Source: Clostridia bacterium (lineage in GTDB: Bacteria; Bacillota; Clostridia; Christensenellales; Borkfalkiaceae). Taken from it: 64,000 bases of DNA. The stretch is taken from the NCBI GenBank assembly GCA_017508485.1, contig JAFVYV010000005.1, forward strand, positions 62,001 to 126,000, in the 5' to 3' direction. The position numbers and the translations under genes are program-made. Under the pieces are notes generated by a model that saw only the letters and a list, made by a program, of their open reading frames with translations, had not been told where the DNA came from and searched no databases. Each line of letters begins with the position of its first letter. The stretch's first letter is position 1. Positions 5,078 through 60,882 of this stretch are shown here, in pieces.

Positions 5078-5953
5078 ATGAAGGTTAAAAAAGCAATTAT
5101 ACCTGCCGCAGGATTAGGTACAAGATTTTTGCCTATAACGAAAGCGATACCAAAGCCAATGCTAACCGTATTAAATAAGCCGGTTATTCAACTAATCGTT
5201 GATGAATTATTAAATTCAGGCATAGAAGATATAGGTATAATCGTTGGCAAAGATGCAGACGTTATAAAAAACCATTTTGCCGACAATTTAGAGTTAGTAA
5301 AAAGGCTAACTGAAGACGGCAAAACCGAACTACTTGAAAGGGTAAACGCAATTAAAGGCAGGGCAAAAATTACCTTTATTGAACAAAAGGTAGCAAACGG
5401 TTTAGCAGGTGCAATAATCGCTGCTGAAGATTTTATAAATAACGAACCTTTTGCAATGCTACTTGGCGATGAATTTTTATATACTGAAAAGGGCAAGAGA
5501 CCTTGCATAGGTCAACTTATTGACGTATTTGAAGAAAGTGGTAAAAACGTACTATCTACTATGGAAGTATCAGATTTAGACGTATCAAAATACGGCAACT
5601 TAGGTATAGAAAAAATTACCGACAAAGTACATAAGGTTTACGACATAGTTGAAAAGCCAACTAACGAACAAAAACTTTCAAACTACGCAATAATAGGTAG
5701 ATACGTTTTTGCAAGTGGTTTAGTAGAAGAATTAAAGAAATTAACTCCAAGAAACAACGAAATATATTTAACGGATACACTTTTAGACTTAGCAAAACAA
5801 GGCAAAGTGTTATCTTATGAATTTGACGCAACAAGATACGACGTAGGCGACCTATTCGGCTACGTAAAAGCAAATATTGAGTTAGCGTTAAAGGAAGAAA
5901 GTTTAGTAGAAGAAACTAAAAAACTTATAAAGGAATTAAACGAAAAAATATAG
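5078..5953 (+). CDS. galU: UTP-glucose-1-phosphate uridylyltransferase
   Basis: Forms UDP-glucose from UTP and glucose 1-phosphate for cell-wall and glycolipid glycosylation. The 291-residue length is normal. The nucleotide-binding start IPAAGLGTRFLPITK and the following KPMLTVLNKPVIQ are the family signature, and a lower-case copy of the active-site region with GDEFLY and VEKP is present. A TAGGAGAAAAA ribosome site precedes the ATG. It sits between rpiB and the mcsA-mcsB-clpC set, where ctsR would be expected in B. subtilis, and only 6 bases separate its stop from the mcsA start. Identification is firm. Confidence 0.95.
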   Translation: MKVKKAIIPAAGLGTRFLPITKAIPKPMLTVLNKPVIQLIVDELLNSGIEDIGIIVGKDADVIKNHFADNLELVKRLTEDGKTELLERVNAIKGRAKITFIEQKVANGLAGAIIAAEDFINNEPFAMLLGDEFLYTEKGKRPCIGQLIDVFEESGKNVLSTMEVSDLDVSKYGNLGIEKITDKVHKVYDIVEKPTNEQKLSNYAIIGRYVFASGLVEELKKLTPRNNEIYLTDTLLDLAKQGKVLSYEFDATRYDVGDLFGYVKANIELALKEESLVEETKKLIKELNEKI

Positions 5954-5959
5954 TTTTTT

Positions 5960-9790: not shown

Positions 9791-10948
9791 TTACATAACA
9801 ACGGTAATTTTTAAGTAGTTTTCGTTAGGAATTTCAGCAAAAATTTTCCATTTATTATAAGTTGCAAGGTCTTTTGCAATAGCAAGACCAAGCCCAGAGC
9901 CACCCGTTTGGCGATTTCGTGAACTTTCTCCACGGTAAAATCTTTCAAAAATCTTTTTGCGCTCATCTTGTTTAACCATAGAGCCACTATTTTGAACGGT
10001 AAACACCGTTTTATTATCCTTTTTATAAAGTGCAATTTTAATTTCTTCTTTGCCGTCAGAGTATTTAATTGCATTTTCAATTAAAATTTCTACAATTTTT
10101 TTAATAGAATTTTGGTCGCCGGTATATAAAATATCAGGCTCAATACTACTAATAATTGACTTTTGTTGTTCAAAAGCAATAGCGTCAAAAGAAAGCAAAA
10201 TTCCGTTTATAGTATCGCTTAAATTAAAGTTCTTTTTTTCTAAAACAAAGGTCGTTTCGTTTAACCTTGAAAGGGTTAACATATCTTGAATTAAAGAACT
10301 CATACGCTTTGTTTGGTCTTTAATTCCGTTAAGCCACTTATTGTCTTCATCTTCACTAAGCAAAATATCACAGTTCGCTTGAACTATAGTGATAGGGGTG
10401 TTAAGTTCGTGACTTGCATCGGAAATAAAAGCCTTTTGTTTAGTAAGCGACTCAGCAAGTGGTTGAACGGTTTTTCCTACTAAAAAGAAGGTAAAAACAA
10501 CAAGTAAAACAAACAAAATACCAAGCCCTTCCATAACTCTAAAAATTGTTGCTTTTTGAGTAATAATATGTTCAGTCGCATCAATAGCAACGGCAACGTT
10601 ATCTTTAATTAAAAGGGAATAGTTATCAATTCTAACGTAACCGTTTTTACTTACCTTAACCTTTTCAAAAAGTTCTTCAACTTCTTCTTTAGTAAATTTA
10701 TCACTATGATAAATCGTATCGCCAAAACCAGTTATTTGTAAAATTATTCCGTCAACGGTTTTTAGTTCATCTTGAATAGATTGTGGTTCTTTTTCACTTA
10801 TTTCAAGCAAAAGGTTAAGAGTTTTAACTTCTTTTTTATAAAAATCTTGCTTTATAATTAAAAACATAGTAAAAGATGCTACTGCATAAAGTAGCACCAA
10901 AACAGCCGTTATAATAATAAAAAACTTTCTTCTCTTTTTCTTAATCAT
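9791..10948 (-). CDS. Two-component sensor histidine kinase
   Basis: Membrane histidine kinase of 385 residues. Two membrane helices (about 9-32 and 141-158) enclose an extracellular sensor domain of about 110 residues with no recognisable ligand motif. The phospho-accepting His is H180 in SDASHELNTP, and the ATPase domain shows NAIKYS (N box) and GGSGLGLAIAKD (G2). A canonical HAMP domain is not obvious: only about 15 residues separate helix 2 from the H box region. It overlaps the response regulator gene by 8 bases, so the pair is one operon and almost certainly one signalling pair. The stimulus is unknown. Confidence 0.93.
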   Translation of the reverse strand: MIKKKRRKFFIIITAVLVLLYAVASFTMFLIIKQDFYKKEVKTLNLLLEISEKEPQSIQDELKTVDGIILQITGFGDTIYHSDKFTKEEVEELFEKVKVSKNGYVRIDNYSLLIKDNVAVAIDATEHIITQKATIFRVMEGLGILFVLLVVFTFFLVGKTVQPLAESLTKQKAFISDASHELNTPITIVQANCDILLSEDEDNKWLNGIKDQTKRMSSLIQDMLTLSRLNETTFVLEKKNFNLSDTINGILLSFDAIAFEQQKSIISSIEPDILYTGDQNSIKKIVEILIENAIKYSDGKEEIKIALYKKDNKTVFTVQNSGSMVKQDERKKIFERFYRGESSRNRQTGGSGLGLAIAKDLATYNKWKIFAEIPNENYLKITVVM

Positions 10949-11615
10949 TTTCTTCTAAAATATATCCAACGCCACGAATAGATTTTATTTGAACGGTAGA
11001 GCCAAGCGCAACAAGTTTTTTTCTTAAGAAAGAAACGTAAACTTCAATCGTGTTATACTCTGCTTCCGTTTCAAAACCCCAAATCTTTTCAATAAACCTT
11101 TCTTTATAAATGGTCTTTTTAGGGTTATTAAAGAATATTTCCATAATTTGGTATTCTTTTTTACCAAGTTTTAAACTTTTTTCCCCACAAGAAAGTTCAA
11201 AAGTGTTTACGTTAAACTTAAGGTCACCAAAAGTAAGTTCGTCAGTAGTAAACTCACCATTTCTTCTAAGTAAGGCTTTAACCCTTGCAAGTAATTCAAT
11301 CATATCAAAAGGCTTTGTCATATAATCGTCGGCACCAATATTTAGACCAACAATTTTATCAGCCGTTTGATTTTTAGCAGAAAGAATTAAAACAGGTGAC
11401 TTAACTTTACTATTTCTTAAAACCTTCAAAAGGTCAAGCCCGTTCATTTTAGGCATCATAAGGTCAAGAATAATTAAGTCGTAAACCCCGGTAAGGGCCA
11501 TTTCAAGCCCTTCTTCACCATCAAAAGCAGAGTCAACAAAATACTTGTTTTGCTTTAGAATAGTGGTGATTGCATTATTTAATTGTACTTCATCATCTAC
11601 AACAAGAATTTTCAT
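10941..11615 (-). CDS. OmpR/PhoB-family response regulator
   Basis: A 224-residue DNA-binding response regulator. The receiver domain (about 1-115) has the acidic pair D7-D8, phospho-acceptor D51 in LILDLMMP, and the conserved Lys in DDYMTKPFD. The C-terminal winged helix (about 125-222) ends with RGVGYIL, typical of OmpR/PhoB. I start at the ATG giving MKILVVDDE; a TTG six codons upstream would add residues with no homology. There is no Shine-Dalgarno site before this ATG, and an extended -10 (TGGTACAAT) ends 6 bases upstream, so the message may be leaderless. The kinase gene follows with an 8-base overlap. Confidence 0.94.
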   Translation of the reverse strand: MKILVVDDEVQLNNAITTILKQNKYFVDSAFDGEEGLEMALTGVYDLIILDLMMPKMNGLDLLKVLRNSKVKSPVLILSAKNQTADKIVGLNIGADDYMTKPFDMIELLARVKALLRRNGEFTTDELTFGDLKFNVNTFELSCGEKSLKLGKKEYQIMEIFFNNPKKTIYKERFIEKIWGFETEAEYNTIEVYVSFLRKKLVALGSTVQIKSIRGVGYILEEND

Positions 11616-11621
11616 ATTTAT

Positions 11622-11630
11622 ATTGTACCA
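11622..11630 (-). promoter_or_regulatory. Extended -10 promoter of the two-component operon, likely leaderless
   Basis: TGGTACAAT on the minus strand ends 6 bases before the ATG of the response regulator, which puts +1 on or next to the start codon. There is no good -35 at 17 bases, which fits an extended -10 promoter. Position is by inspection only. Confidence 0.5.
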
Positions 11631-11696
11631 CAAAAATCTTAAAAATTCCTTTAAATTTTAAAAAAATATAAAAACATTTTTTCAGGGCTTAAAAAT

Positions 11697-15320: not shown

Positions 15321-17462
15321 TTATTTTCTTAAATCAATTAAATTTTTACTATTTTTTGGCGTTATAGATTCTTCTTTAGAAAGTAGTTCAAAATAACAAT
15401 TTATAATTTTGTACCTTCTTATAAAGTAAGAATTGTTCTTTTCATCAGTATATTCAAGCCTATCAAAAGCACACTCTTTACAACCCTTTTTATTGACTGC
15501 AATAGAAGGACAATGACAAAAAGTCATAAGTGGTAAATTGCCGGTTTTTATACCGATATAGTCAAAATCAAATCCATCACTTTCCATAGAAACTATAATA
15601 TTTTCAGCCCCTAAATTTAGGTGAGCATTAGCCGTTAAACTGTTAAACACGTTTAGGTTATAGCCAATAATTACAGGGTAGGTACTTAAGTATTTTAACC
15701 CCCAGTAATTTTCTGCAACCACGCCAACTTCAAAGTCTAAAGAAGATAAAATATCGTCAATAAACTTAACTTCATTTTTAGTTGCAACTATAGGAAGGTT
15801 TATGTACAATTTTTTGTCGTATCCCATATTTTTAAGTTTATAATAAAAATCTTCAACAACCTTTTTAGAGTAGGTTAAAGGGGATAGAACAATGGTTTCA
15901 TCATTAAAAGAAAAGTCCGTTTCTTCATTAACAATTAAAAGGTTTTTAGTGATAGGGTTAACCTTATTAAAAGTGTAATTTTCCTTTACAATTTCAGGTA
16001 AATTTTTATTATAAGCCGTAATTATTTTTTCTTCTAAAAGAGAGATAACCGTTCTTCTTAATTCGTTCAATTTTGAAGACGGAATAAAAACTTTGTCAGC
16101 GTCAAAATAAAAATTATTTAGGCAAAATGCGCTTTCTTTTAGTTTAGAAAAACTTATGAAAGCATCTTCTTTTAATAAAGGTTTATTTATTGAAGAAGGT
16201 GGAATATCTCCAAAAGAATGGGCTTCAATTTCGCCGTAAACGGCTTTTAAAGATATAGGCTTATTTTCCTTTGCCGTAAAGTAAAAATCAACAGGCAAAT
16301 ACCTTTTATCGCTTAATAATTCTTGTTCAAACTCATAGTCAAGTGGTCTATAACAAAGACTGTTCACAAAAGGTTTACGCGCAGAATAAACAATGGTTAA
16401 ATTTCCCTTTTTTACTGCGTTTCCAACCCCTAAACTAACTTGTTTTCCACTCAAAATAAACTTTAACCCGTCGTTTTTGTTTATTTGTAATTTTGTATCA
16501 ATAGCAATTTCAAAAATATCCTTAAAAGGCTTAACTGAAACCACTTTTCCAACATATTCGCCAAGGTGATTTTGCACCTTTTCGTTAATAATTTTATCAT
16601 TTCCGTTTAAGTATGCGCTATCGTTAAACCCACGAGAAAATATTTTAGAAAGGGTGCTTAAATCATCTTTTTCAAAACCACCGTTAAGTGCTTTTCTATA
16701 AGTTTTAACAACCCCAGCAACGTAAGAAGGTCTTTTTAGTCTACCTTCAATTTTAATTGAATCAACCCCTAAATTTTTTAGTTCGTTTAGCCTTTCAATT
16801 AGGCATAAATCGGAAGGGGAAAGATAATAACCGTCTAACTTATTGCCGTTAGAATTTACCTTATATTTTAACCTACAAAGCTGATAACATTTACCTAAAT
16901 TGCCACTATTTTTATTCTTCATAGCGCTTAAATAACAGTTGCCGGAAAAAGCAACGCACAAAGCACCGTGAACAAAATATTCAATCTCTAAATTAGTGTT
17001 TTTCTTTATGTTGGCGATATCTTCAGGCTTAGTTTCTCTAGAAAGTACAACCCTTTTAAAACCTAATTTTTCTAAAACTTTAGCCCCTGCTAAATTGTGT
17101 ATACCCATTTGCGTACTTGCGTGTAAAACTATGTTTTTATACTTTTTGAGAAGAGTATAAGCAACGCCAAAATCTTGCACGATAAAAGCATCAACTTTTG
17201 CCTTAATTAAAAGGTCAATCATATCAAAAAATTCGCCTAAATTTTCTTCACTAATCAAGGTGTTAACGGTGATATAAACCTTAACGCCGTAAAGGTGAGA
17301 AAACTTAACGATATCACCGATATTTTCGGTTGTAAAATTGTCTGCTTTTATTCTTGCATTAAAGTTTTGAAGTCCAAGATAAACGGCATCTGCACCGTTA
17401 TAAATTGCTTGATAAAAACTTTGTATATCGCCACAAGGGGCAAGTAGTTCTAAATTTTTCAT
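15321..17462 (-). CDS. U32-family peptidase-like protein (RlhA/YrrO superfamily), long form
   Basis: A 713-residue member of the U32 group. The N-terminal catalytic-like domain begins MKNLELLAPCGD and carries the U32 cysteine cluster, HGALCVAFSGNCYLS followed by a CYQLC segment (about residues 160-200). The C-terminal half is the extra region found in the long clostridial forms. Members act in RNA modification (RlhA hydroxylates C2501 of 23S rRNA in E. coli) or are called collagenases; which applies here is unknown, but the RNA-modification role fits the conserved cysteines. I chose the ATG giving MKNLELL; upstream in-frame codons lack homology. No ribosome site is present, and a TATAAT ends 6 bases before this ATG. 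Confidence 0.88.
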   Translation of the reverse strand: MKNLELLAPCGDIQSFYQAIYNGADAVYLGLQNFNARIKADNFTTENIGDIVKFSHLYGVKVYITVNTLISEENLGEFFDMIDLLIKAKVDAFIVQDFGVAYTLLKKYKNIVLHASTQMGIHNLAGAKVLEKLGFKRVVLSRETKPEDIANIKKNTNLEIEYFVHGALCVAFSGNCYLSAMKNKNSGNLGKCYQLCRLKYKVNSNGNKLDGYYLSPSDLCLIERLNELKNLGVDSIKIEGRLKRPSYVAGVVKTYRKALNGGFEKDDLSTLSKIFSRGFNDSAYLNGNDKIINEKVQNHLGEYVGKVVSVKPFKDIFEIAIDTKLQINKNDGLKFILSGKQVSLGVGNAVKKGNLTIVYSARKPFVNSLCYRPLDYEFEQELLSDKRYLPVDFYFTAKENKPISLKAVYGEIEAHSFGDIPPSSINKPLLKEDAFISFSKLKESAFCLNNFYFDADKVFIPSSKLNELRRTVISLLEEKIITAYNKNLPEIVKENYTFNKVNPITKNLLIVNEETDFSFNDETIVLSPLTYSKKVVEDFYYKLKNMGYDKKLYINLPIVATKNEVKFIDDILSSLDFEVGVVAENYWGLKYLSTYPVIIGYNLNVFNSLTANAHLNLGAENIIVSMESDGFDFDYIGIKTGNLPLMTFCHCPSIAVNKKGCKECAFDRLEYTDEKNNSYFIRRYKIINCYFELLSKEESITPKNSKNLIDLRK

Positions 17463-17468
17463 AAAACG

Positions 17469-17497
17469 ATTATAACACATAAAGAAAAGTAGCACAA
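17469..17497 (-). promoter_or_regulatory. Promoter of the U32 gene, likely leaderless
   Basis: On the minus strand: TTGTGC, 17 bases, perfect TATAAT preceded by TGTGT (extended -10). Only 6 bases separate TATAAT from the ATG and there is no Shine-Dalgarno sequence. Confidence 0.65.
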
Positions 17498-17589: not shown

Positions 17590-17848
17590 AGTAAATGCTA
17601 TGACGGAATTAAGTTTTACTTAAATCTTTTTCAGAGAGTCGGTGTTTGGTGTGAACCGATAAAGGTAGGTAATTCAGTCTCGTTCCGGAGCAGGAATTTT
17701 GAACTTGTAGTAAAAATTCTCGGCAGATTCCGTTATCAAAATCAAAGGCTTGTTAGAGTCAAAGAGTGGCTAAATAATTTTAGCAAGTAGGGTGGTACCG
17801 CGATAATTTCGTCCCTAAAGTATATTATTTTACTTTGGGGATTTTTTT
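17590..17848 (+). promoter_or_regulatory. T-box leader, leucine (CTC specifier)
   Basis: Fills the ~400-base gap before the LeuA-like gene. Stem I is closed by TGCT/AGCA and CGGAA/TTCCG with a kink-turn-like ATGA between them, holds AGAGAG and the GGTGTGAA distal loop, and its 3' internal loop carries CTC (17679-17681), a Leu codon. A second stem pairs GAATTTT with AAAAATTC; stem III is GCTAAA/TTTAGC. The T-box is AGGGTGGTACCGCG (17789-17802). The bulge TGGT would pair with discriminator A73, as in tRNA-Leu, and excludes Ser (G73). The terminator is 17812-17822 with 17831-17841 plus seven T. Uncharged tRNA-Leu should switch the operon on. Confidence 0.88.
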
Positions 17849-30386: not shown

Positions 30387-30971
30387 TTAAAAGAATATAA
30401 TTCCAAGTACAGCCGAAAGAATAATTAAAAGTATAGGGGAAAACCTTTTCTTCAAGAGCTTTTCCACAAGAATTTTTACTACAATAATTATTCCCGCAAT
30501 TATTAAAGAAAGGTAGTTAAAGGTAAGTTTACCACTAACAGCAGGGAATAACACGTTAAATGCAATAGAAATTCCCGTTGCTAAAATTAGCCCAACAATA
30601 ATAGCAAGCATTGCGTTTAACGCACCTTGAACGTACTTGTTGTTAATAATTTTCTTTAGTAAAGTTGCAATTAAAAGTATAATTATAAAAGATGGTAGCA
30701 TAACGGCAAAAGTAGCCACTAAAGCCCCTAAAATGCCACCAAAAACCCCTAATTCAGCCGTACCAACCTGATTTCCAACAAAGGTTGCAAGGTTAATAAT
30801 GAACGGGCCAGGGGTTGATTCACTAATACCAATAAAATCAAGAATTGCGCTTTCAGTAATCCAACCGTGCGCCAACACTTCTTGCTTTACCATAGGTATC
30901 ATAGCGTAGCCACCACCAAAAGAGAAAAGGCTTGTCTTAAAAAACGACCAGAAAAGTTTTAGGAAAGTCAT
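30387..30971 (-). CDS. Chromate transporter, half-size subunit 2
   Basis: A 194-residue hydrophobic protein with five or six predicted membrane segments and one ChrA repeat: FGGGYAMIPMVKQEV near the N terminus and GISESTPGPFIINLATFVG around residue 50. Short-chain ChrA proteins work as pairs encoded side by side, each giving half of the full-length transporter. It overlaps the other half by 4 bases (ATGA). Substrate in natural settings is uncertain; export of chromate or another oxyanion is the family role. Confidence 0.9.
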   Translation of the reverse strand: MTFLKLFWSFFKTSLFSFGGGYAMIPMVKQEVLAHGWITESAILDFIGISESTPGPFIINLATFVGNQVGTAELGVFGGILGALVATFAVMLPSFIIILLIATLLKKIINNKYVQGALNAMLAIIVGLILATGISIAFNVLFPAVSGKLTFNYLSLIIAGIIIVVKILVEKLLKKRFSPILLIILSAVLGIIFF

Positions 30972-31561
30972 TTGTTTTCCTCCTTTTCTTTAACCTTTTT
31001 AGCGGTAGTAATTGCAGTAGTAATAATGCCAACAACTGCGCCAAAAATTATAAAATAAATGGTAGAAACGTTAATTGCAAAATAGTCAACTAATAACGTT
31101 CCAACTAAAGATAATATAATCAATATATATATAACAGGGGTCTTTTTTGTCTTTTTAAGCATCTTAATACCTGCAAGGATAATAAGAATACCAACTCCAA
31201 CAGAAATACCCTTAAAAGCACTATCAACAATAGCTAAACTTCTAAATTCGTTATAGAAGAAAGAAATTATTAAAATAATTATAGTAGGTGGTGTCATAAC
31301 GGCAAGTGTACCAAGTAAAGCACCCCAAAAACCAAGTAGTTTATAGCCTACAAAGGTAGAAGTGTTAAGCGCAATAGGTCCTGGCGTTGACTCTGCAATA
31401 ACTATAATTTGATTAAGTTCATCTTCATTAATCCATTTTTTCTTTTCAACAAGTTCTGCTTGGAACATAGATACCATTGCGTATCCACCACCAAAAGTGA
31501 ACAAACTTATCTTAAAAAAAGTCCAAAAAAGGATTAAAAAGTTCTTAAAAGTCTTTTTCAT
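30968..31561 (-). CDS. Chromate transporter, half-size subunit 1
   Basis: The upstream partner of the pair, about 197 residues, with the same ChrA marks (FGGGYAMVSMFQAEL; VIAESTPGPIALNTSTFVG) and several membrane helices ending in a Lys/Glu-rich tail. Two ATGs lie two codons apart. I take the second because the -10 (GTGTTAAAAT) touches the first and ends 6 bases before the second, and no Shine-Dalgarno site exists, so the message would begin at the second ATG. The first ATG would only add two residues (end at 31567). Confidence 0.88.
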   Translation of the reverse strand: MKKTFKNFLILFWTFFKISLFTFGGGYAMVSMFQAELVEKKKWINEDELNQIIVIAESTPGPIALNTSTFVGYKLLGFWGALLGTLAVMTPPTIIILIISFFYNEFRSLAIVDSAFKGISVGVGILIILAGIKMLKKTKKTPVIYILIILSLVGTLLVDYFAINVSTIYFIIFGAVVGIITTAITTAKKVKEKEENK

Positions 31562-31567
31562 AACCAT

Positions 31568-31596
31568 ATTTTAACACGAAAAACTGCAATTAGCAA
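31568..31596 (-). promoter_or_regulatory. Promoter of the chromate transporter pair, likely leaderless
   Basis: On the minus strand: TTGCTA, 17 bases, TAAAAT preceded by GTGT. Six bases lie between TAAAAT and the second ATG; no ribosome site. Confidence 0.6.
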
Positions 31597-39499: not shown

Positions 39500-39750
39500 G
39501 ATAAACCTATGAGGTAAAGTAGTAGGTAAAGTAACTGTTTTCAGAGAGTTTGTGGTTGGTGTGAACAAACAATAGTCTTTATTGAATGGATTACTGAGGG
39601 CGAGGGTGAACTAAAAGTAGCCTTTGACGGAGCGTTCAACGTTATATGAACAAAGTATGATAGTACTTATAGAGTTAACCGTAAGGTTAAGAAATTGGGT
39701 GGCAACACGGATAAATTCGTCCCAAGCGAGTTTATGCGTGTTTTATTTTT
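39500..39750 (+). promoter_or_regulatory. T-box leader, tryptophan (TGG specifier)
   Basis: Fills the ~340-base gap before trpB. Stem I has AGTAGT/ATTACT below the specifier loop, AGAGAG and GGTGTGAA in the distal part, and GAATGG on the 3' side with TGG at 39587-39589. A GTAA-capped hairpin TTAACC/GGTTAA precedes the T-box TGGGTGGCAACACGG (39696-39710). The bulge TGGC fits discriminator G73 of tRNA-Trp. The antiterminator pairs GGG/CCC and ACGGA/TTCGT. The terminator is a 15-position stem (39705-39719 with 39727-39741, one mismatch, one wobble) plus TTTATTTTT, which puts TCCC in the loop instead of the stem. Confidence 0.9.
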
Positions 39751-42866: not shown

Positions 42867-43054
42867 CCCAAAGTGTACACTTTGGGTTTAAAATAACTAA
42901 AAAATAGTCTTAATAAAAATATTAAAACTAAAAAACTTTCCCATTCAGACTATACTGGCGGTCACGGATTCACACCGTGTCGGCTGTTGGGGCTGTTGGA
43001 CTTGTTCTATAAAAGACATCACCACCGGTCGGGGATTACACCCTGCCCAAAGTT
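42867..43054 (-). promoter_or_regulatory. FMN riboswitch (RFN element) with terminator
   Basis: The aptamer occupies 42934-43054: closing helix AACTTT/AAAGTT, then GGGCAGGGTG, CCCGACCGG, and the 3' part TAGTCTGAATGGG, all classic FMN-aptamer blocks. The terminator is a 9-base stem (CCCAAAGTG with CACTTTGGG, plus-strand positions 42867-42886) with TTTTTT directly before the ATG. ACTTTGGG in the 5' strand of P1 (43046-43053) is a copy of the terminator's 3' arm and can pair with its 5' arm, so it is the natural antiterminator. FMN closes P1 and so allows termination. Confidence 0.93.
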
Positions 43055-43074
43055 ATACTATTTATTTTTCTTAA

Positions 43075-59474: not shown

Positions 59475-59559
59475 CTACTTTTTTAAAAAAAGTGTTGTTT
59501 TTTTTCAAAAAAATGGGGAAAAATACAATTTTTTACATCTTTTTTTCATAAAATGTGAT

Positions 59560-60882
59560 ATGAGAACATTTAGCGATTTAAAAAAAGAAACAAAAATACA
59601 TTTGATAGGCATAGGTGGAATATCTATGAGTGGTATTGCAAAATGGCTTTTAGAAAACGGATATAAAGTTAGTGGTAGTGATATAAATAAATCGGATATG
59701 GTTTTAGGCCTTGAAAGGCTTGGCGCAAAAATTTATATCGGGCATAGGGAAGAAAATGTTTTAGATGCAAATTTAGTAATTTACACTTCTGCTATACAAG
59801 ATGATAATTTAGAAATTTTAAAAGCAAAAAAACTAAAAATTCCACTTATTAAAAGAAGCCGGTTTTTAGGCGAGATTATAAACTTACATAAAAATAAAAT
59901 AGGCATATCTGGTTGCCACGGCAAAACAACCGTTACGGCTATGCTAACACACGCTTTTAACGACGGTGGTCTTAACCCGACCTGTTTTATCGGTGGAGAA
60001 GATAAGGTATATTCAAACTTTGTTAGTGGTAAAAAGGAATACGCTATTTTTGAAGCGTGTGAGTTTAGAAAAAACTTTTTAGACCTAAAAACAGATATTG
60101 CAGTCGTTCTTAACATAGATAACGACCATTTAGACAGTTTTAGTTGTTTTGATGATTTAGTAAAAACTTATAACGATTTTTCAAAAAACGCAATACTCGT
60201 TTATAATGCTGATGATAAGCATTGTAAAAAACTAAACAACCTATCGGCAATTTCTTTTGGAATTGAAAACGATGCAATGTATATGGCAAAAAACATAAAA
60301 GAAAGTGATGGTAAATACTCTTTTAATCTTTACGAATACGGTAAAAATTTAGGTAAAGTAGAGTTAACCGTTGTAGGTAAACATAATATTTATAACGCAC
60401 TTGCTACAATAGTCGTTGCAAGAAAGTACGGTTTATCTTTTGACAAAATTAAAAAATCGTTAAAAACCTTTACTGGTGTTAAAAGAAGAAACGAATTTTT
60501 AGGGGAGTTTAAGGGTAAAAAGTTTTATGCAGATTACGCACACCATCCAACTGAACTTGAAGCCACTTTGAAAAACTTAAAGGAAGACTTTTTAATAGTT
60601 TTTCAACCACATACCTATTCAAGAACAAAATTACTTATGGATGAATTCGTTAGAGTGCTTAAAAATAAAGACCTAATAATATACAAAACCTATTCTGCAA
60701 GGGAAATGTTTGATTTAGAGGGTAGCGCTTATGCGTTAAGAAAGAATTTAACAGGCTCTTTTTATGCAGAAGATAAAGAAGCGTTAAAAAAACTGATAAC
60801 AAACTCTAATAAAAAAAGCGTTATGTTTTTAGGCGCAGGGGATATTTACGATATAGCAAAAGAAATTATTAATGAAAGATAA
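59560..60882 (+). CDS. murC: UDP-N-acetylmuramate-L-alanine ligase
   Basis: Adds L-Ala to UDP-MurNAc in peptidoglycan synthesis. The 440 residues show the Mur ligase layout: N-terminal HLIGIGGISMSGIA (UDP-binding), ATP loop SGCHGKTTVTAML (about 116-128), FEACEFRKNFL, and the C-terminal DYAHHPTELEATL. ATG has no Shine-Dalgarno site; TAAAAT ends 5 bases before it, so a leaderless message is possible. It is divergent from spoVG and ends at a terminator before the hrcA operon. Confidence 0.96.
   Translation: MRTFSDLKKETKIHLIGIGGISMSGIAKWLLENGYKVSGSDINKSDMVLGLERLGAKIYIGHREENVLDANLVIYTSAIQDDNLEILKAKKLKIPLIKRSRFLGEIINLHKNKIGISGCHGKTTVTAMLTHAFNDGGLNPTCFIGGEDKVYSNFVSGKKEYAIFEACEFRKNFLDLKTDIAVVLNIDNDHLDSFSCFDDLVKTYNDFSKNAILVYNADDKHCKKLNNLSAISFGIENDAMYMAKNIKESDGKYSFNLYEYGKNLGKVELTVVGKHNIYNALATIVVARKYGLSFDKIKKSLKTFTGVKRRNEFLGEFKGKKFYADYAHHPTELEATLKNLKEDFLIVFQPHTYSRTKLLMDEFVRVLKNKDLIIYKTYSAREMFDLEGSAYALRKNLTGSFYAEDKEALKKLITNSNKKSVMFLGAGDIYDIAKEIINER

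Follow-up and report, generated by a model that had tools for sequence, protein, structure and literature searches.

Why should a response regulator gene that lacks a usable Shine-Dalgarno (SD) site carry a box resembling a promoter -10 element just six nucleotides before its start codon? We asked this of a 64,000-nucleotide stretch of Clostridia bacterium DNA (hereafter the window; 34% GC), in which an earlier note, made from the sequence alone, had remarked on such boxes 5-6 nt before several genes and had suggested a class of leaderless messages in a lineage where they are not commonly expected. The window belongs to genome G000, a 1.11-Mb assembly of 17 contigs that is 87% complete. The genes concerned stand apart from their neighbors, for which the note had claimed good ribosome sites; this held, as in 306 of 396 sampled G000 open reading frames (ORFs) some start within the first 15% of the ORF is preceded by an SD match of 4 bases or more. 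Other leader elements of the window are two T-box leaders and an FMN riboswitch (17591-17819 and 39500-39727, plus strand, and 42929-43059, minus strand), all scoring above the gathering score. From the GC content, the McsA- and McsB-like genes, the T-boxes and the prevalence of SD-led genes we would place the DNA in a Gram-positive, Bacillota-type lineage. The four genes that retained our attention and their putative promoter elements, the latter read from the sequence, are as follows.

11613..11630, minus strand: extended -10 TGG-TACAAT, a gap of 6 nt (ATAAAT) and the ATG (11613-11615) with which the response regulator gene starts; TACAAT-N6-ATG spans 11613-11627
10941..11615, minus strand: predicted leaderless gene for a response regulator of the OmpR type, 224 aa when read from the ATG at 11613-11615 (Response_reg and Trans_reg_C domains)
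17460..17477, minus strand: extended -10 TGT-TATAAT (box at 17469-17474), gap CGTTTT and ATG (17460-17462) of the U32 gene, spacing 6 nt
17492..17497, minus strand: U32 -35-like TTGTGC, 17-nt spacer
15321..17462, minus strand: predicted leaderless gene for a 713-aa protein of the peptidase U32 family (PF01136, E 4.6e-68)
31559..31576, minus strand: chrA-like extended -10 TGT-TAAAAT (box at 31568-31573), gap ATGGTT and ATG
31591..31596, minus strand: chrA -35-like TTGCTA, 17-nt spacer
30968..31561, minus strand: chromate transporter half gene (chrA), 197 aa, predicted leaderless (PF02417, E 6.9e-48)
30387-30971: second chromate transporter half, downstream of the first
59549..59562, plus strand: murC -10 TAAAAT (box at 59549-59554), 5-nt gap GTGAT and ATG (at 59560)
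59560..60882, plus strand: murC gene, 440 aa, predicted leaderless (TIGR01082, 390 bits, cut-off 335)

The boxes are where the earlier note had placed them, 6 nt before the ATG in the response regulator, U32 and chrA genes and 5 nt before it in murC, which had been called the weaker case, and none of the four genes has a usable SD site. The protein family matches agree with the gene names given in that note. The first T of the box thus lies 12 nt before the start codon in the first three genes, in all of which TGn extends the -10, and 11 nt before it in murC, which has neither TGn nor a recognizable -35. No -35 was recognized upstream of the response regulator -10. In chrA another ATG directly abuts the -10 box, and it is the second ATG (31559-31561) that lies 6 nt from it; all 18 bases of this element (31559..31576) are identical in the congeneric genome G001.

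The window holds McsA-like and McsB-like genes, and mcsA had been tentatively put forward as a further leaderless member on account of its own box.

5949..5954, plus strand: TATAGT ahead of mcsA, not accepted here as a promoter

This candidate was discarded, because the box takes in the TAG stop codon (5951-5953) of the upstream ORF 5078-5953 and its spacing is not conserved, being 5 nt in G000 and 4 nt in G001.

One objection is that, at 34% GC, such boxes are TA-rich hexamers that arise by chance, the real messages having longer SD-less 5' untranslated regions that originate at promoters farther upstream. The simplest searches fit this explanation. The sequence TAnnnT is common at every spacing, without a clear peak, in 464 kb of G000 (the window plus 20 further stretches), and the bare TATAAT followed after 5 or 6 nt by ATG showed no excess, with 37 occurrences versus 49 for the reversed control. 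The extended motif behaved differently. When TGnTAnAAT was scored before the first ATG of the 396 ORFs of the same 464 kb, at spacings from 0 to 39 nt, there were seven occurrences at a spacing of 6, one at 7 and zero to two at every other spacing. In the whole of G000 the strict motif, TGnTAnAAT-N6-ATG, was found 23 times versus 6 for the identical motif at a single control spacing of 9 nt (p 0.001). The excess at 6 nt is real for TGnTAnAAT and missing for TAnnnT and bare TATAAT.

The strict motif could then be examined for features on which it had not been selected. We collected 102 strict sites, 23 from G000, 19 from G001 and 30 each from G009 and G041, which represent other genera (G041 has 32 sites in all). 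Eighty of the 102 sites head an ORF of at least 60 aa, including 28 of the 30 from G009 and 25 of the 30 from G041. In G000, an ORF of 60 aa is lacking at 9 of the 23 sites, and at one of the remaining 14 the ORF is of 65 aa only and was counted as chance; the strict motif alone is therefore insufficient to call a gene. The base immediately preceding the ATG (-1) is a pyrimidine at all 80 ORF-heading sites (69 T, 11 C), versus 14 of the 22 sites without such an ORF (Fisher p 1.5e-6); at SD-led G000 genes the count is 128 of 239. The TTG of a -35 element occurs with a 17-nt spacer at 47 of the 80 sites, whereas no other spacer length between 10 and 30 nt has it at more than 7 of them. Both the -1 pyrimidine and the -35 TTG lie outside the search pattern, so they are independent promoter signs, and their company with the motif is not what chance hexamers would give. 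Among the 22 sites heading no ORF, 9 have a -35 score of at least 4 matches, versus none of 22 at an offset control, and thus a few of these sites may serve as promoters for other transcripts.

Using 53 sites from G009 and G041, we trained a weight matrix and ran it over 578 candidate ATGs belonging to 370 G000 genes. Eleven genes (3%) scored 8.3 or more and the next candidate scored -0.9, whereas off-register frames, where ordinary promoters lie further upstream, gave a mean of 1.4 and a maximum of 6 genes at a threshold of 8. Inclusion of the congeneric genome G001 in the training set returned the identical 11 genes: nadD, U32, chrA, tilS, cca, mutS2, the response regulator gene, radC and three genes without a Pfam family. 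Predicted leaderless genes would thus account for about 3% of the sampled G000 genes. The products of these last three, L125 (100 aa), L077 (169 aa) and L127 (185 aa), had no Pfam match at 1e-5.

The register is also kept between genomes. Eleven orthologous pairs of G000 and G001 have the motif at a spacing of 6: tilS, radC, cca, rsmG, nadD, a dtxR-like gene, dut, ruvX, the response regulator gene, U32 and chrA; only two or three ORF-heading sites in each genome lack a partner in the other set. The -10 bases are alike at 87 of 88 positions, a figure that is partly forced because both sets were picked by the motif. The rsmG and nadD genes have the motif at spacing 6 in G009 as well, although that genome is of another genus. 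Among U32 loci, where the start could be set mechanically in 29 of 30, TAnAAT at spacing 6 was found in 9 of the 29 (our own genome included), none of the nine with an SD match of 4 bases or more; in two further loci (L003 and L015) a box was seen by eye 6-7 nt ahead of an earlier ATG. Of 30 response regulator loci examined, 4 have a leaderless-type box at spacing 6 and 24 are SD-led. Those with the box include the G001 orthologue (L032), which reads TGATAGAAT-N6-ATG, and loci L034 of G024 and L050 of G007. When the two families are taken together, an SD match of 4 bases was found in none of the 13 loci with a box at spacing 6, versus 7 of 20 U32 loci and 24 of 26 response regulator loci without one. 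Given the spike at 6 nt alone, the unselected -35 and -1 pyrimidine signals, and a register kept in the 11 orthologous pairs and in some distant U32, response regulator, rsmG and nadD genes, we consider it highly unlikely that the boxes arose by chance.

The murC gene follows a variant of this layout. TAnnnT lies 5 nt before the start in four of the five family loci that could be read, those of G000 and G001 (both TAAAAT), G009 (TATTAT) and G021 (TATACT), but not in the fifth, that of G024; the G004 locus, incomplete at its start, was left out of the comparison. An SD site was found in none of the five. The one relative of MurC that a scan of genome contigs gave is distant, at 41% identity, and is labelled uncultured Tenericutes. 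From its sequence murC would be a weaker member of the leaderless class, given its 5-nt spacing and the lack of an extended -10. Upstream of the murC start we also saw, by eye, GTGCATTTTT in both G001 (L265) and G009 (L268), which is possibly a regulator site.

Even if the promoters are real, the ATG at +1 might go unused, translation starting instead at a downstream SD-led ATG, or at an upstream start codon carried on a longer transcript. Several genes offer such starts. The response regulator, U32 and chrA genes have upstream in-frame start codons, that of the response regulator gene (a TTG at 11633) being preceded by an SD-like match of 6 bases, and a downstream ATG with a 4-base SD match is present in tilS (+75) and chrA (+84). 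These are the exceptions among the 13 G000 genes: in ten, reading upstream in frame reaches a stop codon before any start; in nine, an in-frame stop lies no more than 15 nt ahead of the ATG; and in eleven, the next 30 codons offer no start preceded by a 4-base SD match. Moreover, the G001 counterpart (L032) of the response regulator TTG is an ATG that is followed directly by TGA, and recognizable N-terminal motifs begin exactly at the proposed ATG codons, MKILVVDDE in the response regulator (ATG at 11613-11615), MEKIGIFGGTFDP in NadD and MRILALDIG in RuvX. We therefore give very little credence to initiation elsewhere. In 7 of the 13 genes (L126, L128, L131, L134, L135, L138 and L143) the TAA of the TAAAAT box is in frame and forms a stop codon at -12, and in this way the promoter sequence ends the reading frame ahead of the predicted leaderless ATG.

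A further possibility is mixed expression, in which the leaderless start is an extra one and the working message comes from a second promoter upstream. There is precedent: such an arrangement is reported for leaderless starts of Clostridium phytofermentans, where the genes generally keep a ribosome binding site and another upstream transcription start (PMC5171806). The genes described here differ in lacking the SD site and in having a conserved register. At 74 of the 80 ORF-heading sites no SD match reaches 4 bases, and at the remaining 6 the match involves the TG of the extended -10 itself, 12-13 nt away. A longer transcript of these genes would carry no SD site either, and mixed expression seems to us unlikely.

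We return to the leaderless reading. Of the explanations considered, a leaderless class as the earlier note had suggested, less mcsA, is the best fit to the comparative data, that is, to the fixed register, the promoter elements with their -35 sequences, the -1 pyrimidine, the missing SD sites and the conservation among orthologues. A -10 hexamer at -12 to -7 from the A of an ATG is placed as is usual when that A is the first transcribed base, and leaderless mRNAs take up the ribosome at their 5'-terminal AUG. The boxes are very probably sigma-A-type promoters giving leaderless mRNAs. A sigma-A-type polymerase, directed by a -10 at -12 to -7 that is mostly extended by TGn and often accompanied by a -35 at a 17-nt spacer, would start transcription at the A of the ATG. 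The resulting mRNA would have neither a 5' untranslated region nor an SD site, and so initiation would have to use the bare 5' AUG. The position of the 5' end at the ATG, the nature of the sigma factor and ribosome entry at the 5'-terminal AUG are what we infer; the register, the promoter elements, the -1 pyrimidine, the missing SD sites and the conservation are seen in the sequences themselves.

How widely is this layout distributed? We counted the strict motif at spacings of 6 and 9 nt in 37 genomes of the family, 24 genomes from other families of the order and 248 other genomes of the phylum. Within the family, 591 sites were found at spacing 6 versus 253 at spacing 9, with more at 6 in 33 of the 37 genomes, although genomes of one family are not independent. 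Individual genomes with a pronounced excess besides G000 were G001 (19 versus 3), G009 (30 versus 3), G041 (32 versus 2), G038 (19 versus 1) and G049 (24 versus 3). The other families of the order gave 280 sites versus 155, with more at 6 in 15 of 24 genomes, whereas the other phylum genomes gave 2329 versus 2188, with more at 6 in 123 of 248; the seven of these that are of the same class gave 73 versus 75. At least 10 sites together with a twofold excess were found in 21 of 37 family genomes, 7 of 24 from the rest of the order and 18 of 248 from the rest of the phylum, and a single-genome p below 0.001 (uncorrected) in 8 of the 61 relatives and 2 of the 248 others. The pattern has gaps, since 4 of the 37 family genomes and 9 of the 24 others of the order had no excess at spacing 6 (e.g., 4 versus 14 in G013 and 3 versus 13 in G048).

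Smaller samples gave sparse counts. At a threshold of 8 the matrix called 3 genes in 18 stretches of nine family genomes (off-register mean 0.67, maximum 4) and 5 genes in 20 stretches of ten order genomes (off-register mean 0.57, maximum 2); in both sets strict sites were too few for per-genome histograms. Strict sites are absent from the ten stretches taken from each of G009 and G041, so their zero strict counts are uninformative, and TAnAAT at spacing 6 precedes 4 of 168 and 2 of 163 genes there, respectively. In a phylum control of 20 stretches from five genomes the strict motif at spacing 6 preceded none of 350 ORFs. The 6-nt promoter layout is marked in the family and in part of the order and is near background in most of the sampled genomes of the phylum. 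The two single-genome excesses with p below 0.001 among the 248 others, G276 (10 versus 0) and G308 (43 versus 15), perhaps mark separate leaderless-rich lineages.

Leaderless genes in this phylum have precedents, and so the earlier view that they are not commonly expected in the lineage is half right. Zheng et al. (2011) predicted TA-led (leaderless) genes in 56 of 209 Firmicutes genomes, at a mean of 4.2%, concentrated in Lactobacillales and Mycoplasma (PMC3160421), but 5'-end mapping in clostridia found few: leaderless starts were 4% of intergenic starts in C. phytofermentans (PMC5171806) and there were 15 candidate leaderless genes in C. difficile (PMC7438776). The TA-led genes resemble ours in having TANNNT some 12 bp ahead of the start codon, in the TG that precedes the box in several of the low-GC genomes and in a relative abundance of information-processing genes (PMC3160421); our cases differ in belonging to what is apparently another lineage, at about 3% of sampled genes, and in keeping both register and gene identity within the genus and partly beyond it. 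C. phytofermentans and C. difficile are likewise low-GC Gram-positive hosts with few leaderless messages (PMC5171806, PMC7438776). The -10-motif genes of Deinococcus-Thermus also have a -10 beside the ORF and give leaderless mRNA, but there they are about 30% of ORFs and were tested with reporters, whereas here they are a small minority predicted from sequence (PMC12340547). Cappable-seq of gut bacteria found leaderless starts at 10 and 15% in Akkermansia and Bifidobacterium, two of the four species analyzed (PMC4782308). No paper on leaderless genes of Christensenellales was found among the matches listed, a weak test of novelty. As far as the literature search shows, we would regard the finding as a known phenomenon, predicted leaderless Firmicutes genes, in a new lineage.

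The predicted set consists of genes for the processing of tRNA and rRNA, for repair and for nucleotides and cofactors, together with a few that encode regulators and transporters. We entertain, as a long shot, the idea that the SD-free leaderless maintenance genes of the order (tilS, cca, rsmG, nadD, dut, ruvX, murC and others) are a selected set and form a regulon that responds to the state of translation. If so, their messages would be favored when the initiation machinery is in short supply or changed, as may be the case in slow growth, and promoter placement alone would bring the regulon under translational control. Gene callers that expect SD sites may misplace the starts of such genes. 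The response regulator loci, divided between 4 of leaderless type and 24 that are SD-led, provide pairs that could be used to ask how a gene switches its mode of initiation. Among bacteria that use SD sites there would be a lineage in which defined core genes are predicted to be leaderless, with a register that matches in related genomes.
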